Of a stretch of DNA of 64,000 nt, positions 1-34,037 are shown piece after piece; position 1 is the first letter of the stretch, and each line of letters starts with the position of its first letter. The notes under the pieces were generated by a model, which was not told the DNA's origin, did not search any database, and saw nothing but the letters and a program-made list of their open reading frames with translations. Source of the stretch: a virus; the IMG/VR virus record IMGVR_UViG_3300028920_000040, positions 59,836 to 123,835 of that record; one strand, written 5' to 3'. The position numbers and the translations under genes were made by a program.

Positions 1-106
1 GAATAAGTTTCTTAGTGTAGATAGAGATGTATTTTCAACTCCATTTGATGAACCTAGTAAAAACGCATTTAGAAAATTTTTAAATACAGTAGGAATATTT
101 GAATGA
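1..106 (+). CDS. 3' end of an upstream gene (partial)
   Basis: An open frame enters from the left edge (first whole codon at 2) and stops with TGA at 104-106, giving 34 residues ending in NTVGIF-E. The stop overlaps the next start as ATGA, which implies translational coupling. Too little is present to assign a function. Confidence 0.75.
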   Translation, partial: NKFLSVDRDVFSTPFDEPSKNAFRKFLNTVGIFE

Positions 107-694: not shown

Positions 695-1183
695 ATGAGT
701 TTCAAGGATTATTTCAGAAAGAAAATAGACGAAGTTAAATTAGGAAATATGTTTCCTGTTAGAAAAATTCCTGTTGACTTTAAGCAGTGGCAATACCCAA
801 AGGAACACAAAACTCTTCCTTTTAATGACCATGAAATTTCTGTTATAAGGGAAATAATCAATCGAAGCGAAGATACTGTATATCCTGTTAATATAATGGT
901 TTCAAAAGATAAGACGACTATTTTACTTCAATGGGAAGAGTATATGGACCCAGCTTCAGGAAATTCTGGAGCTTTATATAAAATTGATGGTGGAGATAAA
1001 AAATATTATTGGGCATCATTTCAAAGACCTGAAGAAATGGGTTGGGGACAAGAAACCGATCCTGAAAGGTCTACTTCAAAAGACGATATAAAAAATTATA
1101 GCTTCTCTCCTGAAAAGGAAGACGATATTCTTAAACTTCGTAAGCTTATAGTCATTCATGCAAGGCCTGGAAGAAATATATAA
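695..1183 (+). CDS. Tagged protein of unknown function, 162 aa
   Basis: Not recognised. The N-terminus MSFKDYFRKKIDE fits the shared tag, with a possible cut after Glu13 (I-D-E). The body is soluble, rich in Trp, Asp and Glu, with an acidic patch near residues 120-135. It starts 1 nt after the NMNAT-like gene behind GAGGAG, so the two are probably co-translated. Virion placement is inferred only from the tag. Confidence 0.8.
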   Translation: MSFKDYFRKKIDEVKLGNMFPVRKIPVDFKQWQYPKEHKTLPFNDHEISVIREIINRSEDTVYPVNIMVSKDKTTILLQWEEYMDPASGNSGALYKIDGGDKKYYWASFQRPEEMGWGQETDPERSTSKDDIKNYSFSPEKEDDILKLRKLIVIHARPGRNI

Positions 1184-18028: not shown

Positions 18029-18053
18029 TTATTTTTGTTATAAAGGATTTAAA

Positions 18054-18098: not shown

Positions 18099-19124
18099 AT
18101 GAATTTTAGAGATTATTATTTTACAGAATCTAAAAAATACGATCATATAGATTTTAAACCCCCGAATGGAGTCGCATCTGAAGCAAAAAAAGGATTAGAG
18201 TTTCGTCAAAAAGCGGGAGATAAAGGCGGATTATCTGTTAAACAAGCCAAAAAAGAGGGTGTTGGATCAGGAGTTCAAAGAGCAGTCAATCTTAAAAATA
18301 GAGATACAATGTCTCCAAAGACTGTTAAAAGAATGAAAGCATTTTTTGATAGACATGAAAAAAATGCAAAAATAGATTCGAAATATAAAGGAACTCCTTG
18401 GAAAGATAAAGGCTATGTCGCATGGCTACTTTGGGGAGGAGATGCAGGAAGATCGTGGGCAAATAAGATAGTTCGTCAAATGGAATCTGCTGATAAAAAA
18501 ATTAATGAAGGATTTGAAGATGTTGAAAAAGCATTAGAAAGAGGCAGAAATAGCGATCCGGCCGATCCCGATCTTTGGGAAAAAATTAAAAAAGAAGCAG
18601 ACAAAAAATATGGAAAAAAGTCTTCTGCATATAAAAGTGGAAAATATATCATCAAAGAAAATGATTTACCGGAGTTAGTTCTCCCAATAGGAATTTCGGG
18701 CTCGGGTAAAAGTACATGGATTAAGGAATTTAACAAAGATAACAAATACAGAGTTGTCGAGCCGGATGGAATTCGCAGAGAAGTAACTGGTGATGTATCT
18801 GATGCAAGTCAGGATAAACAAGTTTGGAAGATTGCAAAACAGAGGACTATAAATTCGTTAAGAGGCGACCAGAGTGTTATTTTGGATGCCACCAACATTG
18901 ATCCTGACCACCGAGCAGAATTTATAGAAGGTCTTCCTGAATGTGAATTAAAAGCAAAAATATTTAGACTTGATCCTGAAGAAGCAAAGAAAAGAATTAA
19001 ATCTGATATAGAATCTGGAAAAGATAGATCGAATGTACCTGAAGAAATTGTCGATAAGATGTTTGATAGATTTCAGGATAGTATTTCAAAATTAGAAGAT
19101 CAAGGATTTCAAATTATTAAATAA
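18099..19124 (+). CDS. Tagged DUF5824-like protein fused to a PNK-type kinase
   Basis: Three parts. Tag MNFRDYYFTE (F-T-E at residue 10). Residues about 25-125 resemble the phage DUF5824 type domain (VASEAKKGLEFRQKAGDKGG, then VAWLLWGGDAGRSWANKI). Residues about 190-341 are a P-loop kinase of the polynucleotide kinase/AAA_33 group: GISGSGKSTW at 198-207, EPDGIRREVTG, and VILDATNI as the Walker B region. T4 PNK repairs cleaved RNA ends, so a role in RNA repair or nucleotide phosphorylation is plausible. First gene of the tagged block; GAGGA ribosome site. Confidence 0.8.
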   Translation: MNFRDYYFTESKKYDHIDFKPPNGVASEAKKGLEFRQKAGDKGGLSVKQAKKEGVGSGVQRAVNLKNRDTMSPKTVKRMKAFFDRHEKNAKIDSKYKGTPWKDKGYVAWLLWGGDAGRSWANKIVRQMESADKKINEGFEDVEKALERGRNSDPADPDLWEKIKKEADKKYGKKSSAYKSGKYIIKENDLPELVLPIGISGSGKSTWIKEFNKDNKYRVVEPDGIRREVTGDVSDASQDKQVWKIAKQRTINSLRGDQSVILDATNIDPDHRAEFIEGLPECELKAKIFRLDPEEAKKRIKSDIESGKDRSNVPEEIVDKMFDRFQDSISKLEDQGFQIIK

Positions 19125-19134: not shown

Positions 19135-19458
19135 ATGAATTTTAAAGATTATTTAGATGAAGTTATAATGAGGCAGTTGAATGAATCTGGTGGCAAAACT
19201 AAAACAATAGTTACATATAAAGTAAAAGCTAAGAAAAAGATTGAAGACCCGAAATACAAAGAACCAGGTGCGTTTGTTAAAAAGGGATTAACTAAGGAAA
19301 TCAAAAAAAATGAAATAGATTTTATTAAGAAGAATGGTTATACTTTTGATATTCCAATGAGAGATTATTCCGCCAAGATTAAAGTGAGTCCAGAAGATTT
19401 GGATATTTTAGAAGTAACACAAACAATTACAACAAGTACATCTTCTAAAAAAATATAA
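19135..19458 (+). CDS. Tagged 107-aa protein
   Basis: Tag MNFKDYLDEVIMRQLNE with L-D-E and L-N-E as possible cut points (Glu9, Glu17). The body is Lys-rich (KVKAKKKIEDPKYKEP) and ends in a Thr/Ser run. GGAGAG precedes the start. Not recognised. Confidence 0.75.
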   Translation: MNFKDYLDEVIMRQLNESGGKTKTIVTYKVKAKKKIEDPKYKEPGAFVKKGLTKEIKKNEIDFIKKNGYTFDIPMRDYSAKIKVSPEDLDILEVTQTITTSTSSKKI

Positions 19459-19505: not shown

Positions 19506-20903
19506 ATGAATTTTAGAGAACATTATTTTACTCTTATAGAAAGATTTGGTCTTGACGCAATGTACGTTCCTCCAAAGGATAAGCAGTATCAATTATATGA
19601 CTTCTATGCATTGTCTTTAATTAATCCAAATGCTTTTATGGATGAAGAAGCACAAGACTATTTTAAGCAGGCTAAAGAAACTATCGTTAATCATATCTAT
19701 AATGACTTTATGTATGCTGTATATTTTGCATTAGCGTCTGAACTATATCATACAAATGATGCGTCTGATTTTGAAAGTTTTAATTATAAAAATGAAAAAG
19801 ATAGAGCAGATTTAAAAAAAGAAGTTGGTCTTACCGATAAAGAAATTGATATTCTAGGAAAATTAGGGTCTAATATTCCAAGTAGAAAAGTAAGATATAA
19901 TAAGCTCAAAAAATTACTTTCTCCTGATGAGATGGCTAATATAGCAATAAAAGTTTTTGGAAAACATAAATGGTGGAATTCTGCATATGGCGGCGAAGCA
20001 TGGGCAAATATTGCTAAGGGATATAAAAGATTAATTAATGCAAAAACTATTGGAGATAAAATGGTTGCTATCGATCACGTTTACGATCTTCAACATAATT
20101 CAGATACTGTATTCGATAAGGTACAAGAATATTATAAAGGAGGCGACCTTTATTGGTTAAAGAATGCTCTTGATGATAAGGCACAAATCAAAGAACCTCA
20201 TGTTTATCTAGATAAAACATCTCCTCAATTATTCAGACCCCTTGCATATGCTTTTAAACAGCTATATGGAAAAACTCTTGAATCTTTTAAAACAGAAAAA
20301 GAAGAAAAAATTAAACAAATATTAGGAAAGTATAATGTTGATATTAATGATCCTCTCGTACAAGAATTTTTAAATGCTATTCAACCATTATTAGCCGTTT
20401 ATGAAAAATTAGATAATTATACTAAAACTGAAATTATTAGTATTATTAAAATTATAAAACAGAAAGATTATAATCAATTGAGTGACGATGATACATATGA
20501 TGATTTAAGAGACGCTATAGACACCGAAGAAACATATGATGTTATTGATTATAAAACCGAAGTTAATATTAGAAAAGCAATATCAAAGTTTATTAATAGA
20601 ATAGAAAATTATAAAACAAAACAATTTTCTAATTATCTTATAAAAGCTGGTTCTGAATTATTTGATTATATTATTAAAAATAGTTATAATGCAGATAAAA
20701 TAATGAAGACATATGATAAATTTCTTAAATTGGCCGAAAAAATTTCTACAGCATATAATATAGATTTAATACAAGATATATTTCAGAATATAGTAGAAAA
20801 CATTGAAAACGATAAGATTAAATTTAAAAACGAACAGCAAAAAGAAAAAGCAAAAAAGTTAGTAACAACATTATTAATGGATATCGAAGATTGGGGATTA
20901 TAA
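19506..20903 (+). CDS. DFYAL-family paralog A1, tagged
   Basis: First of six tandem relatives of a family I do not recognise, named here for the conserved D-F-Y-A-L. Tag MNFREHYFTLIE (L-I-E, Glu12). Shared core: RFGLDAMYVPPKDKQYQLYD, MDEEAQDYF, YGGEAW..IAKGYKRLI, MVAIDHVYDLQHNSDTVFDK and IKEPHVYLDKTSPQLFRPLA. The invariant H-x-Y-D-L-Q-H-N might be a metal or catalytic site. The C-terminal about 190 residues are Lys/Asp/Asn-rich helices unique to this copy. 465 aa. Confidence 0.8.
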   Translation: MNFREHYFTLIERFGLDAMYVPPKDKQYQLYDFYALSLINPNAFMDEEAQDYFKQAKETIVNHIYNDFMYAVYFALASELYHTNDASDFESFNYKNEKDRADLKKEVGLTDKEIDILGKLGSNIPSRKVRYNKLKKLLSPDEMANIAIKVFGKHKWWNSAYGGEAWANIAKGYKRLINAKTIGDKMVAIDHVYDLQHNSDTVFDKVQEYYKGGDLYWLKNALDDKAQIKEPHVYLDKTSPQLFRPLAYAFKQLYGKTLESFKTEKEEKIKQILGKYNVDINDPLVQEFLNAIQPLLAVYEKLDNYTKTEIISIIKIIKQKDYNQLSDDDTYDDLRDAIDTEETYDVIDYKTEVNIRKAISKFINRIENYKTKQFSNYLIKAGSELFDYIIKNSYNADKIMKTYDKFLKLAEKISTAYNIDLIQDIFQNIVENIENDKIKFKNEQQKEKAKKLVTTLLMDIEDWGL

Positions 20904-22231
20904 TGAATTTTAGAGAACATTACTTTATAGAAAAGTTTGGTATGGAATCAATTTACACCATACCAAAAGACAAAGAACAACAGCTCTTTGACTTTTATGC
21001 TTTAACAATGTTCAATCCTAATGCATTAATGGATGAAGAAGCCCAGATGTTTTTTTCAGAAGCTAAAGAAAAAATTATTGACAGCCTTCAAAAATCTTTT
21101 ATAGATGCTTTATATACGGCCATTGCTGCTGAACTTACTCATACATTAATGCAGGCTTATCCTTTCTATTATGCATATCGTAATGATCATGACATTAAAT
21201 CAAAAAAATCTAAAGCAGAAGTTGAAGAAAAATTTACTCCTGAAGAAATAAAGGTACTTAAAAACTCTCATAATATTAGATCATATAATTATGATCAAAG
21301 AGCAAATTTCTTTAAAGAAAAAGGATACACTCCTGAAAAATTATATATTCTAGCTAAAAAAGTTTTTGATTTAAATTGGAGTTCTTCATTTGGTGGAAAG
21401 AAATGGAAAGAAATAGCGGTGGGATTAGAAAGATTAATTAATGCAAAATCTATGGGTGATAAAATGGTCGCTATAGATCATGCTTATGATCTTCAACACA
21501 ACAACGATACAGTCTTCAATAAAGTAAAAGAATTCGCTAAGCACGGAAGTTACGAGTGGCTCAAAAGAGCATTGGATTTAAAAGCACAAATTAAAGAGCC
21601 TCATGTTTATCTTGATAATATTTCTTCACAATTATATAGACCAATGGCTTACGCATTAAAACAAATATATGGAAAAACATTGGAAAGTTTTCTAAAACAA
21701 AAAGAAGAAGAAAAACAAAAATTTAAAGAAGAAATTTTAGAAAAGTGGCCAAACATTTTTAATGGAATTCGTCTTGAACACCAGGCAAAGAGATCATCAA
21801 TACAATATAATGTTCCAGTTAGTATATTTATACAATATGATTTTGATAAAAATAAATTAATAGATTCTTTTTATGTTCGACATAGTAACAAATCAATGTT
21901 AAATGATTATAGAAATAGTCCAGATACTATAGAAGTTAAAGTAATAAAACCAGAAGAAGCAAAACAGTTTATAATAAAAAAAGCAACAGACGCAAAAAAA
22001 TACAATTCAAGTGATTATAATAAATTTTTAAAAGGAGCAATTCAAGCAGCTAGGTCAAGAAATTCTTTTATGGCTCTTTATTATAATACATCATATAATA
22101 ATTTTGGATTTTCTAGTATAGGCGATTTTGGATATAATAATGAAAAAGATATAAAACCAGGATTTATAGCACTTGGTAATTATGTAATAATAGCCATTGT
22201 TAATCCAGACGGGAGTATAGATGAAATTTAG
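20903..22231 (+). CDS. DFYAL-family paralog B1, tagged
   Basis: Tag MNFREHYFIE, then the B-type signature KFGMESIYTIPKDKEQQLFD. It keeps the family core (MVAIDHAYDLQHNNDTVFNK; IKEPHVYLDNISSQLYRPMA). The C-terminal domain (about residues 290-442) differs from type A and looks mixed alpha/beta (VSIFIQYDFDKNKLIDSFYV...). Start taken at ATG 20903, which shares a base with the previous stop; an in-frame ATG 12 nt upstream lies inside that gene. Confidence 0.8.
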   Translation: MNFREHYFIEKFGMESIYTIPKDKEQQLFDFYALTMFNPNALMDEEAQMFFSEAKEKIIDSLQKSFIDALYTAIAAELTHTLMQAYPFYYAYRNDHDIKSKKSKAEVEEKFTPEEIKVLKNSHNIRSYNYDQRANFFKEKGYTPEKLYILAKKVFDLNWSSSFGGKKWKEIAVGLERLINAKSMGDKMVAIDHAYDLQHNNDTVFNKVKEFAKHGSYEWLKRALDLKAQIKEPHVYLDNISSQLYRPMAYALKQIYGKTLESFLKQKEEEKQKFKEEILEKWPNIFNGIRLEHQAKRSSIQYNVPVSIFIQYDFDKNKLIDSFYVRHSNKSMLNDYRNSPDTIEVKVIKPEEAKQFIIKKATDAKKYNSSDYNKFLKGAIQAARSRNSFMALYYNTSYNNFGFSSIGDFGYNNEKDIKPGFIALGNYVIIAIVNPDGSIDEI

Positions 22232-23537
22232 AGAACATTATTTTACAGAGAAGTTTGGTATGGAATCTATATATTCTCTGCCAAAAGACAAAGAACAACA
22301 GCTCTTTGACTTTTATGCTTTAACAATGTTCAATCCTAGTGCTTTGATGGACGAAGAAGCCGAAATGTTTTTTAATGAAGCAAAAGAAACAGTAATAAAT
22401 GGTCTTCAAAAATCTTTTATAGATGCTTTATATACAGCCATTGCTGCTGAACTTTTTCATACAAAAGATCAAGCAAAACCATTTCATGAATATGAACATT
22501 CTTTTTCTATAAAAAATAGAAAAAATGCAAAAAGTATTATCGAGTCTCAATTTACTCCAGAAGAAATAGCTTTAATAGATGATATTTCTAATGAATATGA
22601 CTATTCTAGAGGCGAATTGGATTATGATCAAAGAGCAAAAATTTTTAAAGAAGGTGGATATTCTCCTGAAAAATTATATAAATTTGCTAAAAAAGTTTTT
22701 AATCTTGATTGGTATGGTGGATATGGCGGCAAGAAATGGAAACAAATTGCAGATGGATTAGAAAGATTAATAGATTCAAAATCTCTTGGTGATAAAATGG
22801 TCGCTATAGATCATGCTTATGATCTTCAACATAACAACGATACAGTCTTTAATAAAGTAAAAAAATTCGCTAAGCACGGAAGTTATAGTTGGCTTAAGAG
22901 AGCTTTAGATTTAAAAGCCAAAATTAAAGAGCCTCATGTTTATCTTAATAATATTTCTTCACAATTATATAGGCCTCTTGCTTATGCATTTAAAAAACTT
23001 TATAATAAAACTCTTGAAGACTTTACTAGACAACAAGCAGAAAATAGAGAAACAAATAAAAAAAGAGTTTTAGAATTGTGGGCAAAATCAGATGATTTAG
23101 ATTATATTAAAAGACGTATGATTTATTCTTCACTGAGGGATAACTCTAACGTATCATCTTTTGCAAGATATGATAGTGAAAACGATGAGATAATAAATAC
23201 TTTTTATATATCACACGATAATAATGGAATACAAAGATATAGAAACGATCCAGAATATTTTGAATTGGAAACGATAACACCAGAAAAAGCAAAAGAAGAA
23301 GCAGTAAAAATAGCAAATGATGCAAAAAAATTGAAACCACAAAAATATAAAAATGAATTAAAAGATGTACAATATTATGCAAATGTGTTTAATAAAAATG
23401 GTGCAATATACTATGATATAGAAGATGATACTTTTGAAAATACTTTTTATTCTAATGCTTTTATTAATAAAAACCCTGGAGATATATTTAGTTCGACGTT
23501 TGTATTGATGAAAATAGTTACTCCAAAAAAAGATTAA
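22221..23537 (+). CDS. DFYAL-family paralog B2, tagged
   Basis: Tag MKFREHYFTE. B-type opening KFGMESIYSLPKDKEQQLFD and core MVAIDHAYDLQHNNDTVFNK. The C-terminal domain aligns with B1 (NVSSFARYDSENDEIINTFY, then PEKAKEEAVKIANDAKK). Overlaps B1 by 11 nt. The first 400 nt are close to B1 at DNA level, so duplication is recent relative to the A/B split. Confidence 0.8.
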   Translation: MKFREHYFTEKFGMESIYSLPKDKEQQLFDFYALTMFNPSALMDEEAEMFFNEAKETVINGLQKSFIDALYTAIAAELFHTKDQAKPFHEYEHSFSIKNRKNAKSIIESQFTPEEIALIDDISNEYDYSRGELDYDQRAKIFKEGGYSPEKLYKFAKKVFNLDWYGGYGGKKWKQIADGLERLIDSKSLGDKMVAIDHAYDLQHNNDTVFNKVKKFAKHGSYSWLKRALDLKAKIKEPHVYLNNISSQLYRPLAYAFKKLYNKTLEDFTRQQAENRETNKKRVLELWAKSDDLDYIKRRMIYSSLRDNSNVSSFARYDSENDEIINTFYISHDNNGIQRYRNDPEYFELETITPEKAKEEAVKIANDAKKLKPQKYKNELKDVQYYANVFNKNGAIYYDIEDDTFENTFYSNAFINKNPGDIFSSTFVLMKIVTPKKD

Positions 23538-23559
23538 ATATAAAATATGGAGAATAATT

Positions 23560-23715
23560 GTGAAAAAAATTAAATCTTATTTAGACGAAAAACTTTTTGG
23601 TGGAAAAAAGTCAGATGTTGAAGTTATTGCTAAGGCAATATCTAAAATAATTAAAGATAAAGCTAAGGATGCGGGAATTGATCCTAAGGAAATACTTCAT
23701 TATATCAAGGTATAA
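23560..23715 (+). CDS. Small tagged-type protein, 51 aa
   Basis: GTG start behind GGAGAA. Reads MKKIKSYLDEKLFGG, where I-K-S-Y-L-D-E fits the tag core with a cut after Glu10, followed by a Lys-rich helix (VIAKAISKIIKDKAKDAG). Sits between paralogs B2 and B3. Function unknown. Confidence 0.65.
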   Translation: MKKIKSYLDEKLFGGKKSDVEVIAKAISKIIKDKAKDAGIDPKEILHYIKV

Positions 23716-23719
23716 TTAT

Positions 23720-25045
23720 ATGAATTTTAGAGAATATTACTTTGTAGAAAAATTTGGTATGGAATCAATTTATTCTTTACCGGAAGACAAAGAACAACAG
23801 CTCTTTGACTTTTATGCATTGTCATTAATTAATCCTAATGCATTAATGGATGAAGAAGCTCAAATGTTTTTTAATGAAGCAAAAGAAACAGTAATAAATG
23901 GTCTTCAAAAATCTTTTATAGGTGCTTTATATACAGCCGTTGCCGCAGAACTTTTCCATACACAAGCACAAGCAATTCCTTTCTATAAGGCTAAATGGGG
24001 AAGTTCTAAACAAAGAATAAACGCAATAAATAAAATTGAAAAAATTTTTACTCCTGAAGAAATAAAATTAGTAGAAGACATGCGTAATTTTGGTTTAAAG
24101 AGTTATGATAAAAGAGCAAACTTTTTAAAAGAAAAAGGATATACTCCTGAAAAATTATATAAACTAGGACAAAAAATATTTGGTTTATCTTGGTCTTCAG
24201 GATATGGCGGTAAGAAATGGAAGCAGATAGCCGATGCATTAGAAAGACTGATTAATGCAACTTCTCCCGGTGAGAAAATGGTTGCTATAGATCATGCTTA
24301 TGATCTTCAACATAACAACGATACAGTCTTTAATAAAGTAAAAGAGTTTGCAAAACACGGTAGTTATAGTTGGCTTAAGAGAGCTTTAGATTTAAAAGCC
24401 AAAATTAAAGAACCTCATATTTATCTTCAAAATATATCTGCTCAGCTTTATAGACCTCTTGCTTACGCATTAAAACAAATATATGGAAAAACATTAGAAG
24501 ATTTTATAAGACAAAAAGAAGAACAAAAACAAAAAATTATAGATGATATTTTAAAGAATTGGCCAGAAAATGAAAGTCAAAAAGGCGTAGATCAATCTGC
24601 AAAATTTCGTTCGGTTCAAGATAATGCTCCGGTTAGTATATTTATAAAATATGATTTTGATGAACACAAAATAATCGATGATTCTTTTGTTTCACATCTT
24701 CGCGACAATCTTTTAAAATCTTATAAAAATAGCGATGATTATATCGAAATCAAAATAATAAATCCTAAAGATGCAAAGAAAGAAATACTTGAAAAAGCAA
24801 AATTAGCAAGAGAAAAATCTGATGATTATAATGAGCAGATAGAAGTGACACAACAAGACGCAGAACAAACAAAAATGGAATATATAATTTATTATGATCC
24901 ATTGGAAAAATATGAAAATTTTGGTCATACTGGAAGAAAAAATTTAAGATCGGAGTATCAAAGAAGTAAACCAGGCGATATGATATATGATAGATATGTA
25001 TTAATGGCAATTATTAAATCGGATGGAAGTGTAGATGAACTTTAA
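23720..25045 (+). CDS. DFYAL-family paralog B3, tagged
   Basis: Tag MNFREYYFVE and B-type core. The C-terminus is B-type (VSIFIKYDFDEHKIIDDSFV; YIIYYDPLEKYENFGHTGRK). Start ATG 23720 rather than an in-frame start 51 nt earlier inside the preceding small gene. The leader AAGGTATAATTAT is also found before paralog A3 at 26208, showing that the initiation region was copied with the gene. Confidence 0.8.
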   Translation: MNFREYYFVEKFGMESIYSLPEDKEQQLFDFYALSLINPNALMDEEAQMFFNEAKETVINGLQKSFIGALYTAVAAELFHTQAQAIPFYKAKWGSSKQRINAINKIEKIFTPEEIKLVEDMRNFGLKSYDKRANFLKEKGYTPEKLYKLGQKIFGLSWSSGYGGKKWKQIADALERLINATSPGEKMVAIDHAYDLQHNNDTVFNKVKEFAKHGSYSWLKRALDLKAKIKEPHIYLQNISAQLYRPLAYALKQIYGKTLEDFIRQKEEQKQKIIDDILKNWPENESQKGVDQSAKFRSVQDNAPVSIFIKYDFDEHKIIDDSFVSHLRDNLLKSYKNSDDYIEIKIINPKDAKKEILEKAKLAREKSDDYNEQIEVTQQDAEQTKMEYIIYYDPLEKYENFGHTGRKNLRSEYQRSKPGDMIYDRYVLMAIIKSDGSVDEL

Positions 25046-26186
25046 AGAATACTATAATTTAAACGAAAGATTTGGTCTTGATGCGATGTACGTTCCTCCA
25101 AAGGATAAGCAGTATCAATTATATGACTTCTATGCATTATCATTAATTAATCCAAATGCTTTTATGGATGAAGAAGCTAAGGATTATTTTAAACAAGCCA
25201 AAGAATCAATCATAGATGCAACATATAAAGACTTTGTTAATGCTTTATTCTTTTCTATTGCATCAGAGATTTTTCATATGGAAGACTCTGCATACTTTTC
25301 TCGATTGAATCGAAAAGATATAAAAGATTTTTATAATCTTACTGATAAAGAAATGAAATTTGTAGAAAAAATGTTTGAAGACAACAGTGCAAAATCTAGA
25401 GAAGAAAGAAATAAAATAGTAAGACATGAATTTTCCCCACAAGAACTTGCTAACTTTGCAACGAAAATATTTGCTGGTAATCCAAAAGCATCTCACGAAG
25501 TTGGAGAAAATGATATGTGGGAAGAAGGGTATGGTGGAAAAGCATGGTGGAATATTGCTAAAGGATATAATAGACTGCTTAATGCAAAATCCATACCAGA
25601 TAAAATGGTTGCTATAGATCATGTATATGATTTACAACACAACTCTAATACTGTATTTGATAAGGTACGAGATTATTATAAGAGCGGGTATTCTTGGCTA
25701 AAAGATTCATTAGACGATAAAGCACAAATTAAAGACCCACACGTTTATATTGATAAAACATCTCCTCAATTGTTTAGACCTTTAGCTTACGCTTTTAAAC
25801 AGTTATATGGAAAGACTATTGAATCTTTTAAAAAAGAACAATCAGAAAAATATGAAAAAGATATTATAGAGTTTATGGATAAAAACGGAATTGATCATTC
25901 GCTTTCGTTTTTAGTTGATGGTTTTTTTGACGCACTAGAATTTTTAAATAAATATAAAACAGAAATGGGACTTTCAAAAGAATGGATTGAAAATCGAAAA
26001 TTTAGGTTTAAATATAGTTTAATAGATCAAAATCAAAACAATATAGAAGGTGGTATAAACTTTATAATAGATTTAATTGAACAACATGTTAATATGGCTA
26101 ATATACCATCGTCAGAATCAAAGATAATTATTGATAAATTAGAAGATATTATTAATAAGTTATCAAATTTAAATTATTTTAAATAA
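25035..26186 (+). CDS. DFYAL-family paralog A2, tagged
   Basis: Tag MNFKEYYNLNE (L-N-E, Glu11), then RFGLDAMYVPPKDKQYQLYD. Full core retained (MVAIDHVYDLQHNSNTVFDK; IKDPHVYIDKTSPQLFRPLA). The C-terminal part is shorter than in A1 and unrelated by eye. Overlaps B3 by 11 nt. Confidence 0.8.
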   Translation: MNFKEYYNLNERFGLDAMYVPPKDKQYQLYDFYALSLINPNAFMDEEAKDYFKQAKESIIDATYKDFVNALFFSIASEIFHMEDSAYFSRLNRKDIKDFYNLTDKEMKFVEKMFEDNSAKSREERNKIVRHEFSPQELANFATKIFAGNPKASHEVGENDMWEEGYGGKAWWNIAKGYNRLLNAKSIPDKMVAIDHVYDLQHNSNTVFDKVRDYYKSGYSWLKDSLDDKAQIKDPHVYIDKTSPQLFRPLAYAFKQLYGKTIESFKKEQSEKYEKDIIEFMDKNGIDHSLSFLVDGFFDALEFLNKYKTEMGLSKEWIENRKFRFKYSLIDQNQNNIEGGINFIIDLIEQHVNMANIPSSESKIIIDKLEDIINKLSNLNYFK

Positions 26187-26207
26187 TAAAATTAAAGGTA
26201 TAATTAT

Positions 26208-27371
26208 ATGAATTTTAGAGAACATTACTTTACTCTTTTGGAAAGATTTGGTCTTGATGCCATGTATGTTCCTCCAAAGGATAAGCAGTATCAATTATAT
26301 GACTTCTATGCATTATCATTAATAAATCCATATGCTTTTTTGGATGAAGAAGCACAAGACTATTTTAAGCAGGCTAAAGAAGCAATTATAAATGAGACAT
26401 ATAAAGATTTTATTGACGCAGTATACTTTTCTCTTGCTTCTGAATTATATCATATAGGTGATGCCAGTACATTTCCTGATATGACAGACTCAGAAATAAA
26501 AGATGCAGGAATTAATCTTACTCCTAAAGAAAAAAATACTCTAATTAAATTAAAATATATTGATGACTTCATTGATGATATTCCAGATAGAGTAACAAGA
26601 AATGATGAAATGAGAAATATATTTTCTCCAATAGAAATGGCTAATTTTGCAATAAAAATTTTTCAAGAGAATATATGGGAAGACGGTTTCGGCGGTAAAG
26701 CTTGGCAGGATATTGCTAAGGGATATAAAAGATTAGTTAATGCAAAATCCATGCCAGATAAAATGGTTGCAATTGATCATGTTTACGATCTTCAACATAA
26801 TAATGATACTGTATTTGATAAGGTACAAGAATATTATAACGCCGATAAGGGCGGATATAGATGGTTAAAGAATGCTCTTGATGATAAAGCACGAATTAAA
26901 GAACCTCATGTTTATCTAGATAAAACATCTCCTCAATTATATAGACCTCTTGCATATGCTTTTAAAGAACTTTATGGAAAAACTCTTGAGGGGTTTAAAT
27001 ATGAGCAAGAGCAAGAGCATAAAAAAAGAACATCTGATTATATGAAAAAATGGAATGTCGAACCAGAATATAAAAATATCATTGAAAAATATTTAAATGC
27101 TTTAGATATACTTAAAAAATATAATGTTGTTAATGATTCTTGGGCAAAAGATAGATTAGATATACTTGGTATTAATTTAAAAAATCTAAACATTTTTAAA
27201 GATAAATTAACTACATTAGAGAAAGATCGCACTATTAGAAATATTAATGGTATTATTGAAAGTACAATATCTATGTTTATTATGGAACAAAATGACTCTA
27301 TACCAGATAGAGTAGCACAAGAACAAATTAATATATTAAAATCTTTAGTCTTAGAAATACCAGACGAATAA
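26208..27371 (+). CDS. DFYAL-family paralog A3, tagged
   Basis: Tag MNFREHYFTLLE (L-L-E, Glu12) and A-type core (GGKAWQDIAKGYKRLVNAKS; MVAIDHVYDLQHNNDTVFDK). Leader and first codons nearly duplicate those of 23720. The C-terminal about 120 residues are helical and poorly conserved. Last member of the tandem array. Confidence 0.8.
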   Translation: MNFREHYFTLLERFGLDAMYVPPKDKQYQLYDFYALSLINPYAFLDEEAQDYFKQAKEAIINETYKDFIDAVYFSLASELYHIGDASTFPDMTDSEIKDAGINLTPKEKNTLIKLKYIDDFIDDIPDRVTRNDEMRNIFSPIEMANFAIKIFQENIWEDGFGGKAWQDIAKGYKRLVNAKSMPDKMVAIDHVYDLQHNNDTVFDKVQEYYNADKGGYRWLKNALDDKARIKEPHVYLDKTSPQLYRPLAYAFKELYGKTLEGFKYEQEQEHKKRTSDYMKKWNVEPEYKNIIEKYLNALDILKKYNVVNDSWAKDRLDILGINLKNLNIFKDKLTTLEKDRTIRNINGIIESTISMFIMEQNDSIPDRVAQEQINILKSLVLEIPDE

Positions 27372-27385: not shown

Positions 27386-28918
27386 ATGAATTTTAGAGAA
27401 CACTACTATAAAGACGGTAGATTTATGATGCCGATCTGGTATGACATTGCAACTATTAATGAAGATGGTTGTATTGAGATGTCTATACCTCATCATTTCT
27501 TTCCTGTACTTGTTGAGAATAAAGTTATTAGACTTCGTATAAAAGATCAAGAATTTAATAACATGGACGAGGCTATTCAATATCACGATAGTCTTATGGA
27601 AAAGAAAGGATCAAAAACAAAGAGTGGTGTAGTGTGGGTAGACTCTAAAGGTAATAAAAGAAGCTTTGAAGTAGTTGCTGACAATATTAAAATAGGTGCT
27701 GACACGATTATTCTTAATATGTCTACTGCTCATAAGTGTATGTCTGCTATGCTTGGTATGTGTCCTTTGGGCGGGAAGTGTTATGCAATTTCTAAAGAAA
27801 AAAGATTTGACGCCGCTTTAGCTGGAGATAAAAGACAGGAAGAACAATGGTCCTGTATGACTCCCGAAGCTATTGCACAAGGTATTAAAGACCTTGCCGC
27901 GGCCGATCCCGGTATTAAATATGTAAGATTAAATGAAGCTGGCGAATTTAGAAATTTACCAAAAGGAAAAGAACTTCTTTCCAAGATGGATAAACAGGCA
28001 CAAGGACAAGTTGCTAAGGCCGCTTGGGCAGATGTTGATGATATTTCCAAGTTAAAAAAGATTGCTTCATTAGTTCCCGAATTAAAATTTTATACATATA
28101 CGCATAGAAAAGATTTACAGGAAGAACTAAAAGGACTTGGAAAAAATATTGTTATTAATGGATCGGGATTCATGGTAGATAATGCGTTCATGCCTATTGA
28201 ACTTAATGAATATCTTCCTATTATTGATGGTATTCTTGCTAACAGATATAAAGTTGTTAATGGAGAAAAAGTTTCTCCTAACAAGGCAACAGAGTGTATT
28301 GGAGACTGTAGAGTATGTGATAAATGCAAAGTTGCAAGAGAAATGAATATCTATCTTCCTATTCATGGTGCTGGTACAGAAAAACAAAAAGCATTGGATA
28401 AAATTAAGAAAAAAGTTATTGGAAATCCTGCTTTTAATAAAATATTAATGGCTGATATTACAGACGATGAAAAGGTTGAACAATTGCTTGATATAGTTGG
28501 AATAGAAGATAAAGAAATGATTAATAAACTTAAACCTCTTGTAAGACAAAGGAAAGGATTCTTTAAGAAACTTCTCAATTCAGAAAAATCAAAAGTAGAT
28601 TTTATTAGTGCAATTGCTTCATATATAGAATCAGACGACGAACCAACAGCCGCCGAAGTTGCAAAAGAACCTTCTCAATTAGAAAAACAAAAAGCATTAG
28701 CCGCTTCTGTTGACGCTCTTATGGGAAGACTAAGATCAAATCTTGAGGCAGCGAGATCAAAAGGACAGACAACCGGTGCAAAGAAATGGCAGAATTTTAT
28801 AAAGACAATAGATAATATTATAGACAAAGCCAGGTCTGGCGAAGATATTAAACCTACTGGTGCAATTGCAAAAGAACTTGGAAAAGATATCAAAAGAACT
28901 TTTAAGGGAGTTTCATAA
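27386..28918 (+). CDS. Tagged GP88-like cysteine protein
   Basis: 510 aa. The start MNFREHYYKDGRF keeps the tag's first half but has no [LI]-x-E. The middle resembles the phage gene product 88 family: MSTAHKCMSAMLGMC then PLGGKCYA (Cys118, 126, 132), later VRLNEAGEF, and a second cluster CIGDCRVCDKC near residues 303-313. The two Cys clusters suggest a metal or Fe-S site. The C-terminal about 150 residues are Ala/Lys-rich helices. Biochemical role of the family is not known to me. Strong SD GGAGAT. Confidence 0.65.
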   Translation: MNFREHYYKDGRFMMPIWYDIATINEDGCIEMSIPHHFFPVLVENKVIRLRIKDQEFNNMDEAIQYHDSLMEKKGSKTKSGVVWVDSKGNKRSFEVVADNIKIGADTIILNMSTAHKCMSAMLGMCPLGGKCYAISKEKRFDAALAGDKRQEEQWSCMTPEAIAQGIKDLAAADPGIKYVRLNEAGEFRNLPKGKELLSKMDKQAQGQVAKAAWADVDDISKLKKIASLVPELKFYTYTHRKDLQEELKGLGKNIVINGSGFMVDNAFMPIELNEYLPIIDGILANRYKVVNGEKVSPNKATECIGDCRVCDKCKVAREMNIYLPIHGAGTEKQKALDKIKKKVIGNPAFNKILMADITDDEKVEQLLDIVGIEDKEMINKLKPLVRQRKGFFKKLLNSEKSKVDFISAIASYIESDDEPTAAEVAKEPSQLEKQKALAASVDALMGRLRSNLEAARSKGQTTGAKKWQNFIKTIDNIIDKARSGEDIKPTGAIAKELGKDIKRTFKGVS

Positions 28919-29340
28919 TGTCATTTAAAGATTATTTAAAGAAAAAATTAAATGAAGGCAAATATGATAATACTAATTTAGCCGATCCAAATAGTTATTA
29001 TAAAGTAATAGACTCCTTTGATGTATTTGTAAAAACCGGGTCAAGTCATGCTAATACTTATTATGGAAGTGGAGAAATTCTTAAGTCTGTTTGGAAGAAA
29101 ATGTCAGCAGAACCCGGATATGAAATTCATAATCTCATGGGAGGTACATATATAATTCCAACAGATACGGACGACTTGGTTGCATGGAAAGTTTTAATAA
29201 AAGAACCAGAGTTTGCTCCTTTTGTAAAAAAGTATTATCCAGACCAACAGGTATTTCCTCTTGATAAATTAGAACAAATATCTAAAGAAGAAGCATTATC
29301 AGGAGTTGATTATATTGATAAAATGGAGATTACAAAATGA
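28918..29340 (+). CDS. Tagged 140-aa protein
   Basis: Model example of the tag: MSFKDYLKKKLNE, cut predicted after Glu13. The body is compact and mixed alpha/beta (VDSFDVFVKTGSS-like start, PTDTDDLVAWKVLIKEPEFA). TAATG-coupled to the GP88-like gene. Not recognised. Confidence 0.75.
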   Translation: MSFKDYLKKKLNEGKYDNTNLADPNSYYKVIDSFDVFVKTGSSHANTYYGSGEILKSVWKKMSAEPGYEIHNLMGGTYIIPTDTDDLVAWKVLIKEPEFAPFVKKYYPDQQVFPLDKLEQISKEEALSGVDYIDKMEITK

Positions 29341-29915
29341 AATTTGCTATGTTCTACGAACAGGAAATTGACGACTGGCGTGAGAGAAAAGTGTGGCACA
29401 TCACACCAACAGGCCAAAGAAATCATGTTAAGATAAAAAGTCTTTCTCCAGAAGAACAAGAAAAATATAAGCCGGCTTTACTCGATCTTCATGTTAAAAA
29501 GAAAAAGAAAAGTGCTGAAAATAAAAATCCTGAGAAAAAGGAAAAGGAGAAAAAAGCTTCAGCCGGAGAAATTTTAGACCCGGACCTTCTAGATTTTTAT
29601 TATATTATAAATAGTCCTGAAGATATCGATAAGATAGAAAAAGGAAAATTAATTAAGGCTACTGATCTTTCAAGTAAAGCAATAGAATGGTCTGGCGACG
29701 ATAAATACATAGTTAGTGTATCAAATGTTCCTATTAAGGCTGTTGTGCTTTATAAGAATGATGAAGGAGAAATGGTACATTTTCCTGAGAATATGAAGAC
29801 GCACGACAAATATGAATTTATTAAGTTTCAAGAAAACGACGAGTTTCTTTTAAACTTATTTCCATTTTTAGAACAAATAACAATTAAACTTTCAGATAAG
29901 GAAGAAAAAAAATGA
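29337..29915 (+). CDS. Protein with partial tag, 192 aa
   Basis: MKFAMFYEQE shares the F-x-x-F-Y opening. Then WHITPTGQRNHVKIKSLSPE, a Lys-rich linker (residues about 55-80), and a folded C-terminal half with KAVVLYKNDEGEMVHF. ATGA-coupled on both sides. The W-H-I-T-P-T-G-Q-R motif recurs in phage proteins, but I cannot attach a function. Confidence 0.7.
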   Translation: MKFAMFYEQEIDDWRERKVWHITPTGQRNHVKIKSLSPEEQEKYKPALLDLHVKKKKKSAENKNPEKKEKEKKASAGEILDPDLLDFYYIINSPEDIDKIEKGKLIKATDLSSKAIEWSGDDKYIVSVSNVPIKAVVLYKNDEGEMVHFPENMKTHDKYEFIKFQENDEFLLNLFPFLEQITIKLSDKEEKK

Positions 29916-30121
29916 GCTTAAAAAATTTTCTTATTCAAAAATTAAATGAAGATGATGGCATACCAAGACCACCAACAGAAAGTGAAAAAGGTTCTATGCA
30001 AGCATTATTTAATACTTGGCGTAATATAGGAAGAGGTCTAGCAGATGATCACATGCCTCTTGATATTGTAGAAACAGTTGTAAGATATTTAGAAGATTGT
30101 GGTTATATTAAAGGAGAATAA
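29912..30121 (+). CDS. Tagged 69-aa protein
   Basis: MSLKNFLIQKLNE (cut after Glu13) then a short helical body rich in Arg, Asp and Glu (WRNIGRGLADDHMPLDIVET). Coupled to the previous gene by ATGA; supplies AAGGAG for the next. Confidence 0.7.
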   Translation: MSLKNFLIQKLNEDDGIPRPPTESEKGSMQALFNTWRNIGRGLADDHMPLDIVETVVRYLEDCGYIKGE

Positions 30122-30122
30122 A

Positions 30123-30398
30123 ATGAATAGCAAATCTTTTCAGCAGTATTTAAACGAAGACATTTATGCAAATGCACTTAGAAAAAAATTAACCCCAGAA
30201 GAAATTAAAAGGATTGACAGTTTTGTTGATAGTGAAGGAGAAGAGTGGGACGATCTTGAAGGCGATCTTTATGATAAACTCATGGATTTCTTTGCTGATG
30301 AAATGCCATATGGTGTTATGAAAGCAAGAACTGGTGATCCTATGGAATGGATGTACGATAAATTCATATCAATGGGATTTGGAACAAGAGTAAAATAA
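30123..30398 (+). CDS. Tagged 91-aa acidic protein
   Basis: MNSKSFQQYLNE (Y-L-N-E, Glu12) then an acidic helical body (EEWDDLEGDLYDKLMDFFAD). ATG 30123 chosen because AAGGAG lies 5-10 nt upstream and the tag then begins at residue 1; an in-frame start at 30099 lies in the previous gene. Confidence 0.7.
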   Translation: MNSKSFQQYLNEDIYANALRKKLTPEEIKRIDSFVDSEGEEWDDLEGDLYDKLMDFFADEMPYGVMKARTGDPMEWMYDKFISMGFGTRVK

Positions 30399-30399
30399 T

Positions 30400-30963
30400 A
30401 TGACTTTCAAAGATTTTTATCTTGACGAAAAGATGGCGAGGTGGAACCTACCTAAAAAGAAATGGGTATCTTTACCATTGGAAGAACTTAATGATGATAT
30501 GAAACAACTTCTTTGGAGAATGTATTCGGATTCATATAGTCGTCAAGGACTTGCTTTGAATACAAAAAATATTAATGAATTGGTTGATAAATATAAAGTT
30601 TCCTGGTTCATTGATGTTGATACAGATACTACACCAGAAGCATTTATAATTTATAGAGAATCACCAGTAGGCAATAAAATTGCTCTTTTAGGAACAGACG
30701 ATAACCGTCTTTCAAAAAGACTTCTTGTAAGAAAGTTAATTTCTCTTTTAAGAAAGCCAGGTTGGTATATAGAAGCCTCCCATAAGATTGCAGACATTAT
30801 TGAGAATAAGGGTGGCAAATGGATTGACGACGAAGAAAAGGTTAAAAAGATTCTTGCTCCTGCGGAAATAGATGAATGGCTTGGTGATGGAAGATATAAA
30901 AGAACACTTAAAGGAACAAATATAGAAGTTACAAAAAGACTCTATGGTAATCCAAGAGGATAA
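30400..30963 (+). CDS. Tagged 187-aa protein, possibly GNAT-like
   Basis: Tag MTFKDFYLDE. The middle (WFIDVDTDTTPEAFIIYRES, then KIALLGTDD) has the strand pattern of an acetyltransferase core, followed by helix LSKRLLVRKLISLLRKPGWY. No acetyl-CoA loop Q/R-x-x-G-x-G/A is evident, so this is only suggestive. 1 nt after the previous stop, with no strong SD. Confidence 0.55.
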   Translation: MTFKDFYLDEKMARWNLPKKKWVSLPLEELNDDMKQLLWRMYSDSYSRQGLALNTKNINELVDKYKVSWFIDVDTDTTPEAFIIYRESPVGNKIALLGTDDNRLSKRLLVRKLISLLRKPGWYIEASHKIADIIENKGGKWIDDEEKVKKILAPAEIDEWLGDGRYKRTLKGTNIEVTKRLYGNPRG

Positions 30964-30972
30964 GGAGTAGAT

Positions 30973-31239
30973 ATGAAATATCAAGATTATTTGACAAAAC
31001 TATTAAAAGAACAATCAAAAGAAGAAACTAAAATTAATGAGCTTGAAGAAGAAATTTCTGATTTGATTTGGAGATATGATCCTGAAGGAGAGGATAATTT
31101 TTTTGATGACGACTTAGATAAAATCAAAAAGATTAAAAATCCAAAATCAAAAATTAAAGCACTTGAAAGATTAATTTCAGATATCAAATGGCGATATGAT
31201 CCTGAAGGGGAAGACGAAAATAATTTTTTTGATGATTAA
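30973..31239 (+). CDS. Tagged 88-aa acidic repeat protein
   Basis: Tag MKYQDYLTKLLKE. Contains two near-identical units, IWRYDPEGEDNFFDDD (residues about 34-49) and KWRYDPEGEDENNFFDD at the C-terminus, separated by a helix. Net acidic; may bind cations or DNA-condensing partners in the head. SD AAGGAG. Confidence 0.7.
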   Translation: MKYQDYLTKLLKEQSKEETKINELEEEISDLIWRYDPEGEDNFFDDDLDKIKKIKNPKSKIKALERLISDIKWRYDPEGEDENNFFDD

Positions 31240-31259
31240 ATATAGTAAAGAAAAATATA

Positions 31260-31388
31260 ATGTCATTTAAAAAATATTATAATACAGATATAAATTATAA
31301 AATAAATTTAGAAAATGCTCAACGATTATATGGAAATTTAGTTCCTTGGGAGTTAGATAAAAAAGTTGCTAATAAATTAAGAGGATGA
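31260..31388 (+). CDS. 42-aa protein with partial tag
   Basis: Reads MSFKKYYNTDINYKINLENA and ends VANKLRG. The F-K-K-Y-Y start matches the tag, but no [LI]-x-E close behind. Only a weak ribosome site (AAAGAAAA). Probably a truncated or minimal family member. Confidence 0.5.
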   Translation: MSFKKYYNTDINYKINLENAQRLYGNLVPWELDKKVANKLRG

Positions 31389-31404
31389 TGAAAGGAGAAT
31401 TGTT

Positions 31405-31614
31405 ATGAATTTTGTTAAAAAGTTTTTTAAGAAATTGGCTAAAAAAATTCTTATTAAAAAGATTGAAGACGAGAAATTTCAAGAAGAAATTACTAAGAAG
31501 ATTAGAGAAAAGATTGAAATTCCTAATGTAGATGAGAAAGAAGAAGAAAAATTTGTCAATCAGATTTATGATGCATTACAGGAATTGCTTGTAGGTATTG
31601 TAGAGGATATTTAA
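31405..31614 (+). CDS. 69-aa amphipathic helical protein
   Basis: Starts MNFVKKFFKKLAKKIL, strongly basic and amphipathic, then an acidic helix and a hydrophobic end (ALQELLVGIVEDI). It resembles the tag only in M-N-F; it may be membrane-active. Good AAAGGAGAA ribosome site. Confidence 0.6.
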   Translation: MNFVKKFFKKLAKKILIKKIEDEKFQEEITKKIREKIEIPNVDEKEEEKFVNQIYDALQELLVGIVEDI

Positions 31615-31616
31615 TA

Positions 31617-32018
31617 ATGTCATTTAAAGCTTATTTAAAAGAAAGAGTATTACTTGAAGGTATTAAACCTATAAAGAATGCTGTTATGAAAAGAACTCAT
31701 AAGATTGTTAATGCTTTAAATGATTCTGATGAAGAACAGAAACTTAGATGGAATGTCGGTAAGATAGATTTTGGTGGAGTTCCTACAGAATTTCTTTTTA
31801 CTACTGCAGATATAAATGGTAAAGACTATACTTTCTTTTCATATAATGCAGGCGGTGGATCAAGCATTGTTGCATGGAATTATATAACTCCAAGTTCTTC
31901 TCCCTCTTTTGATGGAACTGAAGGACAGTTACCAGCAACAGATAAATATCAAGACGATCTTTCGGATGATGATTTAGAAGAAATTAAAAAAGTGTTTGAA
32001 AAAATAAAGAGCAAATAA
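31617..32018 (+). CDS. Tagged 133-aa protein
   Basis: Tag MSFKAYLKERVLLE (cut after Glu9 or Glu14). The body has beta strands with a glycine-rich turn (FFSYNAGGGSSIVAWNYITP) and an acidic helical C-terminus. Not recognised. Confidence 0.7.
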   Translation: MSFKAYLKERVLLEGIKPIKNAVMKRTHKIVNALNDSDEEQKLRWNVGKIDFGGVPTEFLFTTADINGKDYTFFSYNAGGGSSIVAWNYITPSSSPSFDGTEGQLPATDKYQDDLSDDDLEEIKKVFEKIKSK

Positions 32019-32019
32019 A

Positions 32020-32073
32020 ATGAAGTTTGAGGAATTTTACATGAAAGAAAATAAAAAGGAGAATCAAAAATGA
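32020..32073 (+). CDS. 17-aa tag-only mini-ORF
   Basis: MKFEEFYMKENKKENQK then TGA, which overlaps the next ATG. It consists of little more than the tag sequence and contains the AAAAGGAG that serves the next gene. Either a coupling leader peptide or the stub of a deleted cargo gene. Confidence 0.45.
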   Translation: MKFEEFYMKENKKENQK

Positions 32074-32441
32074 GCTTTAAAAAGTATTTAAATGAAAAAA
32101 ATCATTTAAAAGAATCCAGATTTTATAAGAGTCAAAAAGTTATATATAAAGACGAGCCATATATTATAACTAAAACTATTGCGCCGCCCGAGGGACATGG
32201 TTGGTATCATAGTGAACTATATGTCATAATTCAACCAGAAGCTGGCGGTGAAGAAATTAAAGTAGATACTGATGAGCTAACTCCTATTGAATCAGATGAT
32301 AAAGATTTATTATCTAAAAAGGAATTAGTCAAAAAAATATCTTCATTGGCTGCCAAATCAAGATATGAGTTAGAAAAAAAATCATTAGGTATTGATATAG
32401 ACATGATTAATTTTAATGAACTTATGAGTATGATGAAATAA
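32070..32441 (+). CDS. Tagged 123-aa protein
   Basis: Tag MSFKKYLNEKNHLKE (Glu9 or Glu15). Then an SH3-like strand set (RFYKSQKVIYKDEPYIITKT, ELYVIIQPEAGGEEIKVDTD) and a C-terminal helix with Met-rich end. Possibly a small beta-barrel; not recognised. Confidence 0.7.
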   Translation: MSFKKYLNEKNHLKESRFYKSQKVIYKDEPYIITKTIAPPEGHGWYHSELYVIIQPEAGGEEIKVDTDELTPIESDDKDLLSKKELVKKISSLAAKSRYELEKKSLGIDIDMINFNELMSMMK

Positions 32442-32445
32442 TATT

Positions 32446-32598
32446 ATGAACTTTAAAGACCATTATTTAAAAGAAGCTGGTGAGAAAAATGATATATTAT
32501 ATCATACCACCCTTGCTGCGACCGTCCCAAAGATATTAGAAGACGGAATAATTTATCCAACACCAGAAACATTTAAGGCATTAGCACAAAGACATTAA
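32446..32598 (+). pseudogene. Tagged, truncated ART-fold (ADP-ribosyltransferase-like) fragment
   Basis: Tag MNFKDHYLKE is followed by ILYHTTLAATVPKILEDGI, which matches the first strand and helix of ADP-ribosyltransferase-fold enzymes (the Y-H-x-T motif of KptA/DarT-like groups). The frame then stops at 50 aa, whereas the domain needs about 150. T4 Alt, a packaged ADP-ribosyltransferase, is a functional parallel. Likely a remnant, though the short protein may still be made. TAATG overlap with the CCA gene. Confidence 0.55.
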
Positions 32599-34037
32599 TG
32601 AGATTCTCAACATTTTATACAACACACTTCTTACTTGAAGCTGGTACCTTCTCCGATTGGAAAGGCTACGTGGAGAGAACTCCCGAGCTTAAAAATGCGG
32701 TAGAAGTAATGCAGAAGATAGATGCGAAAGGAAAAGACATTCGCAGCTATGTTGTGGGTGGTGCTGTTCGTGATATCGTTATGGGTAGAGATTTTAATGA
32801 TGTTGATATCGCAACCAATCTTCCTATATCAGAAATCGAAAAGATGTTCAAGACTCATGATATTGGAAAGAATAAAGACTTTGGTATTGTTGTTGTTGAT
32901 TACAAAGGCGATGTATTTGAAATTGCAAACTTCCGTCAGGATGGTGCATACCTTGATGGTCGCAGACCAGAAGATGTAAAGATCGTTATGAGTTTCGAAG
33001 ACGATGCCGGCCGCAGAGACTTTACTGTCAATGCAATGGGTATCGACAAAGACGGAAATGTTATAGACTTCTTTGACGGAAAGAAAGATATCAAAGACAA
33101 AGTAATTAAAACTGTTGGTGATCCTAATAAAAGATTCGCAGAAGATTATTTAAGAATGTTAAGAGCCATTCGTTTTGGTTCTAAACTTGGTTTCCGTATT
33201 GACGATGATACCATGAAGGCTATCAAATCCAAATCGCATAAGATAAAAGATATTGCTGTCGAAAGAGTTATGAAAGAAGTCATTAAGATGGCAGAACAGG
33301 AAGGATCAAAGTTTGCAGATGCAATCATAACATTGAAAGATGCAGGACTTCTTCAATATATCTTTCCTGAAATTATAGAAATGGATTCTTTCGAACATTC
33401 AGTAGAACATCATCCAGAAGGAAATGTTCTTCAACATACATTGGCCGCACTTAAATCAAGCAATAGTAAAGACCCATTGGTTAATCTTTCTATTCTGTTT
33501 CATGATGTGGGCAAACTAAAGACACATGAAGTAGATGAAAAAGGTCTGCATAGATATTTTGGTCATGCTGAAGAGGCTAGAGAAATCATTGAGAATCTTG
33601 CAAAGAGACTTAAGCTCGACAATGAAACCAAGAATGCAATGCTATATTCAGCAATCAATCATATGAAGTTCCACGACTTCCTGAAGATGAGCAACTCCAA
33701 GATAATGAGTTTGATGGGAGATGATAACTGGGATTTACTTTATCAAGTTGCATTGGCCGATGCTAAGGCTCGTGGAGAGGCATTTGATGAGGAAGAATGG
33801 AAAAAGATTACTGATAAGATAGATGATCTTACCGCCAAATATAAATCCAAAAAGGCTATAGATAATATAAGAAAGATAGTTAATGGCAGAATGGTCATGG
33901 ACTTATTGAATATGAAAGGTGGTCCTGAGCTTGGTAGAATTATAAATACTACTATTGAATGGATATTGGACAACAATATAGACCTTAATGATATAGACAA
34001 AATAAAGGAATTTATAATATCGCAAAGGGGCGAATGA
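32598..34037 (+). CDS. cca: Tagged CCA-adding tRNA nucleotidyltransferase with HD domain
   Basis: Adds or repairs the 3' CCA of tRNAs (and of this phage's tmRNA, which lacks an encoded CCA). Seen: YVVGGAVRD (residues 51-59), FNDVDIAT with catalytic Asp68 and Asp70, RRDFTVNAM, and EDYLRMLRAIRF; then an HD phosphohydrolase domain with NVLQHT and LFHDVGK near residue 300. The first 14 residues MRFSTFYTTHFLLE fit the tag (L-L-E). They are extra to the enzyme, so it may be packaged and processed. 479 aa, slightly G+C-richer than its neighbours. An archaeal-type enzyme is excluded by the motifs. Confidence 0.93.
   Translation: MRFSTFYTTHFLLEAGTFSDWKGYVERTPELKNAVEVMQKIDAKGKDIRSYVVGGAVRDIVMGRDFNDVDIATNLPISEIEKMFKTHDIGKNKDFGIVVVDYKGDVFEIANFRQDGAYLDGRRPEDVKIVMSFEDDAGRRDFTVNAMGIDKDGNVIDFFDGKKDIKDKVIKTVGDPNKRFAEDYLRMLRAIRFGSKLGFRIDDDTMKAIKSKSHKIKDIAVERVMKEVIKMAEQEGSKFADAIITLKDAGLLQYIFPEIIEMDSFEHSVEHHPEGNVLQHTLAALKSSNSKDPLVNLSILFHDVGKLKTHEVDEKGLHRYFGHAEEAREIIENLAKRLKLDNETKNAMLYSAINHMKFHDFLKMSNSKIMSLMGDDNWDLLYQVALADAKARGEAFDEEEWKKITDKIDDLTAKYKSKKAIDNIRKIVNGRMVMDLLNMKGGPELGRIINTTIEWILDNNIDLNDIDKIKEFIISQRGE

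Follow-up and report, generated by a model that had tools for sequence, protein, structure and literature searches.

Organization of the tandem array

The window, which is the whole stretch of 64,000 nucleotides analysed here, was taken from one virus record. ORF checking located six plus-strand genes in one run at 19506-27371 (Table 1), and the tandem array claimed in the first-pass annotation was found gene for gene. Overlaps of 1-11 bases occur at the junctions of three neighbouring pairs. The genes at 20903 and 23720 begin at internal ATG codons within longer ORFs that start at 20891 and 23669. Alignment of the six proteins confirmed the two subtypes and the shared core of about 250 residues described earlier, with 19506, 25035 and 26208 in subtype A and 20903, 22221 and 23720 in subtype B. 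The count of six stood for the tagged array genes. Searching the complete virus record of 123,835 bases added one further copy, which is untagged and has a subtype B-like C-terminus (blastp 2.5e-7 against copy 3). The predicted pI is acidic to near neutral (5.1-6.5) in five of the six array copies and 8.7 in the remaining one.

Shortly before the tagged gene cluster, at window positions 17682-18031 on the plus strand, lies a phage-encoded tmRNA (Rfam RF00023, 132.7 bits, E 1.1e-51), and its tag peptide is AEEYSYAMAA by ARAGORN. Translations between 1453 and 12429 on the plus strand were read by eye as glycosyltransferase-, sulfotransferase-, nucleotide-sugar epimerase-, aminotransferase- and Nudix-like. 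Judged from these translations, this gene run suggests surface-sugar or glycan modification.

Table 1 Features of the array and its neighbourhood in window coordinates. A slash marks the predicted cut.
Feature	Position	Strand	Details
Copy 1, subtype A	19506..20903	+	465 aa; tag MNFREHYFTLIE/RFG
Copy 2, subtype B	20903..22231	+	442 aa from ATG at 20903; tag MNFREHYFIE/KFG
Copy 3, subtype B	22221..23537	+	438 aa; tag MKFREHYFTE/KFG; structure modelled
Copy 4, subtype B	23720..25045	+	441 aa, ATG inside ORF 23669-25045; tag MNFREYYFVE/KFG
Copy 5, subtype A	25035..26186	+	383 aa; tag MNFKEYYNLNE/RFG
Copy 6, subtype A	26208..27371	+	387 aa; tag MNFREHYFTLLE/RFG
Seventh copy, untagged	53345..54661	+	438 aa; all candidate active-site residues kept
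Predicted capsid-targeting tag, copy 3	22221..22250	+	cut predicted after E10; equivalents open the other five genes
E77-x-x-H80, copy 3	22449..22460	+	E 74/74, H 72/74
G169-G170-x-x-W173, copy 3	22725..22739	+	invariant 74/74
D197-x6-H204-N205-x6-K212, copy 3	22809..22856	+	D, H 74/74; N, K in all non-gapped rows
Cytidylyltransferase-like neighbour (PF01467)	103..693	+	tagged-looking, MKFQKFYESKKK
Tagged neighbour without assigned function	695..1183	+	MSFKDYFRKKIDE
Tagged neighbour, AAA_33 / polynucleotide-kinase-like domain	18099..19124	+	MNFRDYYFTE
Tagged neighbour without assigned function	19135..19458	+	MNFKDYLDE
Tagged-looking neighbour, GP88 domain (PF17338)	27386..28918	+	MNFREHYYKDGRF; no clear LxE site
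Further tagged small genes at 28918, 30400, 30973, 31617, 32070	within 28918..32441	+	
Gene 29337	within 28918..32441	+	opens MKFAMFYEQE
Tagged tRNA nucleotidyltransferase	32598..34037	+	MRFSTFYTTHFLLE

N-terminal tag, cut site and T4-type head genes

The six array proteins open with M[N/K]F[R/K]E, followed by an aromatic residue, [L/I/F/V]xE and then [R/K]FG. The residue two positions before the tag glutamate is F in copies 2-4 and L in copies 1, 5 and 6, and in subtype B the glutamate is residue 10. For the T4 internal protein IPIII, the first ten residues suffice for packaging, with residues 4 and 7 serving targeting and residues 8 and 10 serving processing (PMC9026906). All six tags have the IPIII-like spacing of a T4-style targeting peptide. 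The FxE of subtype B departs slightly from the [I/L]xE cut site of T4.

The tag motif, which was set after inspecting the tags, was found in 15 of 159 non-overlapping ORFs of the record, compared with a mean of 0.03 when N-termini were shuffled. Most of these ORFs lie at 18-34 kb, and they include a kinase-like protein and the tRNA nucleotidyltransferase. Since unrelated proteins of the record are also tagged, the tag appears to mark a cargo class and not the array family alone. The tRNA nucleotidyltransferase carries the tag, and an RlaP-type RNA-repair nucleotidyltransferase at 40781-41746 opens with MNYTEKFCTE; these openings suggest that RNA-repair enzymes may be among the packaged cargo. 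Tag dialects seem to be phage-specific and common to unrelated proteins of one phage, for example M[NS]F[KR][DE]Y in the window, M[RK]F..LY in L001 and FxxW in L014.

Across the family members of the large-phage type, [LIVMF]xE stands directly before the core in 39 of 42 tagged or fused members, two of which (one L001 copy, FINE/A, and L141, YLQE/K) rest on tag sites assigned by eye, versus 0 of 13 giant-protein members; the background of this motif is 0.30 per 20-residue stretch. In fusions of more than 1000 residues the site is located mid-protein, still just ahead of the core.

The same virus record (L011) encodes a Peptidase_S77 prohead protease (3.7e-22) and a T4_CASP scaffold (5.5e-19), so that a prohead protease and a scaffold of T4 type are present in one virus, as well as a Gp23 capsid protein (5e-84) and Portal_T4 (2.6e-100). 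The source virus is a large T4-like phage. T4-type Gp23 and/or Peptidase_S77 was detected in 13 of the 24 records whose cores are tagged or fused, many of these records being fragments, and in none of the 11 giant-protein or 15 siphophage records (0/26 together; Fisher p 7e-6, kinship ignored). The tag, the cut site and this co-distribution lead to a reading of the six proteins as T4-style internal head proteins that would be co-ejected with the DNA. The delivery signal proposed for the array thus gained support from the T4-like spacing of the tag, the LxE-type site and the T4-type head genes in the record.

Conserved core and fast-evolving C-termini

The six copies share the core, and M-V-A-I-D-H-x-Y-D-L-Q-H-N is intact in all of them. 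Cores of different subtypes are 50-54% identical, those of subtype A 67-70% and those of subtype B 72-75%. In subtype B the C-termini form one domain, with about 28-40% identity and blastp values of 6e-22 to 6e-45. Those of subtype A are barely alike among themselves (best blastp 0.002), and blastp gave no reliable similarity between A and B C-termini (best 0.005, short stretches).

Between same-subtype pairs, dN was 0.02-0.10 in the first 30 residues, which include the tag, 0.19-0.24 in the core and 0.48-0.95 in the C-termini, where the values are inflated by alignment error, mostly in the poorly aligned subtype A. The subtype B C-termini align well and still show raised dN, and dS is of the same order in core and C-terminus. 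The tag and the core therefore evolve slowly and the C-termini fast. Other family members carry C-terminal parts of different kinds, with GxW repeats in L001, KOW in L118 and, from its sequence, a hexapeptide-like repeat in L002. The earlier description of a conserved core with swapped C-termini is supported, the C-termini being either fast-evolving or exchanged.

Candidate site residues

Conservation was counted over 74 aligned family members and is numbered by the 22221 protein (copy 3). F31, Y32, E77, G169, G170, W173, D197 and H204 are invariant in all 74. N205 and K212 are present in every non-gapped row, and H80 in 72 of 74. In siphophage members H198 is mostly T, D201 is T and Q203 is A or C. 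The D-H-x-Y-D-L-Q-H-N string had been called invariant; this holds for the window copies, and family-wide only D, L (nearly), H and N are kept. H198, D201 and Q203 were lost in the wide alignment and are subfamily features, so the candidate site becomes E77xxH80 plus D197-x6-H204-N205. The idea of a catalytic or metal site survived as a conserved polar site with a changed residue set, in which E77 and H80 had gone unnoted. The family-wide candidate site is E-x-x-H plus D-x6-H-N plus K. This pattern makes an enzyme plausible, and the conserved site could instead be structural.

Structure prediction and database searches

The AlphaFold model of copy 3, built from the alignment, had a pLDDT of 93.2 and a pTM of 0.85. 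Its core is mostly helical and its C-terminal part is alpha/beta. Foldseek with this model gave a best E of 1.2 against PDB and no match at E <= 0.001 in BFVD, a set of predicted viral structures; such a failure is no proof of a new fold. Insignificant Foldseek matches to ribonucleotide reductase R2, superoxide dismutase and GAF domains, several of which are metalloproteins, were set aside. The profile search of PDB with the sequence gave no match, and Pfam, NCBIfam and PADLOC returned no convincing function. Weak matches to AAA-lid, TraD_N, Gluconate_2-dh3 and AbiEii were rejected as below curated cut-offs or near chance. The check by structure prediction and fold comparison suggested earlier yielded a confident model and no match to a mundane structural family.

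All six window proteins matched PHROG 20946 (E 1.8e-6 to 3e-11) over about 50-80 residues in the W..GG..W..D..HN region. The family had been called unrecognised, which is nearly right: it has no assigned function, but it is already catalogued. This hit is partial and has no function attached, and the window members add the tag and other C-termini. The delivery route is known and the cargo domain is catalogued; its residue pattern, its contexts and the absence of a match to known folds are described here.

Distribution of the family

Viral contig scans, the window and the phage records between them yielded 145 different family members. Tandem tagged copies were found in other phages (three in L001, four in L112 and two each in L128, L144, L014 and L193), and the tree shows separate lineage-specific expansions in the window, L001, L193, L112 and L128. 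L193, the single genome contig match, was rejected as evidence of a cellular family: the contig belongs to a phage, carries a Gp23 capsid gene and had been binned with Cyclobacteriaceae.

In siphophages the core occurs untagged and once per record, in about 40 Vibrio, Stenotrophomonas, Rhizobium and Rhodobacter phage records. The siphophage block order is a PPDK-like enzyme, small gene(s), usually a tyrosine phosphatase-annotated gene, the core, a second phosphatase-like or transporter-annotated gene and DNA polymerase; a portal is also present in most records. The siphophage core is homologous to the large-phage core (hhalign probability 100, 8e-53). Literature searching found no virion proteomics for relatives, including in the papers on siphophages with the homologous block.

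The core is also found inside proteins of more than 2000 aa (L132, L164, L168, L172) and in fusions of 1324-1944 aa. These four giant frames exceed 2100 residues and are cut by the locus ends, and they gave no Pfam match at E 0.01. A plasmid search found no relatives of the giant-protein core. Whether the core always follows the tag had been posed as a check, and the viral contig scans answered it in the negative, as siphophage and giant-protein members are untagged. With untagged siphophage members, delivery is not universal in the family.

An additional family, here called HNT-type (L001 9671-10306; parts of L132, L167 and L172), carries TYRSDM...DRxNNxIHNT. It is similar to the latter half of the core, D-x6-HN spacing included; one such gene directly follows the three L001 copies, and others lie inside giant proteins. 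Comparison with the core by hhalign gave a probability of only 73% (E 3e-5) with one profile and 0.4% with the other. The HNT-type model has a pLDDT of 74, weaker than that of the core, and no fold match. Kinship to the core is suggestive. In HNT-type members of L001 and the giants, D and HN are kept, and Q and K/Y replace E and H. If the HNT-type is related, a metal site would therefore not be common to all members.

Discussion

The six array proteins are best read as T4-style internal head proteins, with a probability of about 0.6 for the whole reading. The N-terminal 10-12 residues would act as a capsid-targeting sequence that draws the proteins into the prohead core, and the phage Peptidase_S77 prohead protease would cut after the glutamate of [L/I/F/V]xE. 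The mature core with its C-terminal module would remain in the head and be ejected into the host with the DNA. Packaging and trimming of the six proteins is, judging by the tags, very probable. The helical core, with its polar site E77/H80/D197/H204/N205/K212 accompanied by W173 and F31-Y32, would most likely be a metal-dependent enzyme that acts before phage gene expression, and the variable C-termini would most likely select targets or partners. The array, the tag with its site, the T4-type head genes, the residue conservation, the confident model and the rapid change of the C-termini are computed results; packaging, cleavage, ejection, enzymatic activity and any target are what we infer. 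The untagged seventh copy would be made in the cell after infection. T4 has a comparable pairing, in which Alt is packaged and ModA and ModB are produced after infection; the seventh copy recalls it by analogy only.

The likeness to T4 IPI, IPII, IPIII and Alt lies in the short targeting peptide at the N-terminus, which ends in a site for the prohead protease, in the T4-type protease, scaffold, portal and capsid of the window virus, and in fast-evolving cargo. Unlike the T4 internal proteins, the window proteins are much larger, are not basic on the whole, have another domain and occur as six tandem copies, and their packaging is predicted from sequence. Large multi-domain polyvalent proteins of phages and plasmids (PMC5512222) and P1 DarB, which has an N-terminal capsid-packaging signal (PMC9024508), were also compared. 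The likeness is that the core also occurs within the giant proteins and long fusions, whereas the window copies are single-core proteins of 383-465 aa. They hold one core, one C-terminal part and no other Pfam domain, as opposed to the at least two domains of disparate activity that define polyvalent proteins, and no polyvalent-type Pfam domains were found in the giants examined.

The proteins might be packaged and yet be structural, as prohead-core or DNA-organising proteins with a part in building or filling the head and no activity in the host. T4 core and internal proteins use the same route into the head (PMC9026906), the genes are in tandem, and homologs lie in head or packaging gene neighbourhoods. 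However, the pI of five of the six copies is unlike that of the basic T4 internal proteins, the invariant polar residues are kept even by the untagged paralog, and the core is fused to unrelated modules such as KOW and GxW repeats and is found in siphophages and giant proteins, in records without detected T4-type head genes. These points make a structural role unlikely. A metal-dependent enzyme acting early in the host is favoured over a purely structural head protein, and at roughly even odds the residue pattern may be read this way.

A delivered but non-catalytic domain is another unlikely reading, with a probability similar to that of the structural role. Here the core would bind a ligand or nucleic acid and serve as a decoy or inhibitor of host defence, like T4 IPI, which is packaged and inhibits a type IV restriction enzyme (PMC9026906). 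Fast C-termini next to a slow tag and core are as expected in an arms race, but that E, H, D, H, N and K stay invariant in phages of great diversity speaks for chemistry more than for contacts between proteins. The delivery part is shared with the internal head protein reading, and the probabilities are not meant to sum to one. Less probable still are unpackaged cytoplasmic enzymes of the infected cell, in which the tag does other work such as membrane or partner binding. In favour of such enzymes, the siphophage relatives lack a tag and occur as single genes, whose conserved block comprises a PPDK-like enzyme, DNA polymerase, portal and tyrosine phosphatase-like genes; the seventh window copy is likewise untagged. 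The tag spacing, the LxE site, the co-distribution with T4-type head genes and the tags on unrelated neighbours argue against them.

The diversified effector family proposed in the first-pass annotation stood as far as the delivery signal, the conserved core and the variable C-termini are concerned; that the proteins are effectors rather than packaged structural proteins is something we infer. A broader proposal is tentative and somewhat less probable than even: the core may be a mostly helical enzyme of new fold whose site is E-H-D-H-N-K, seen only in phages so far, that serves as exchangeable early-infection cargo, tagged and in tandem in T4-type large phages, within giant proteins of other phages, and as one gene next to those of tyrosine phosphatase type in siphophages.

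No known fold was detected for the core, and the residues that could be mutated are defined, which opens its chemistry to direct tests. If the internal head protein reading is true, the tags would allow the packaged cargo of uncultured T4-type large phages to be listed from sequence alone, and an uncharacterised domain in well over 100 phage contigs would become a testable early-infection protein.
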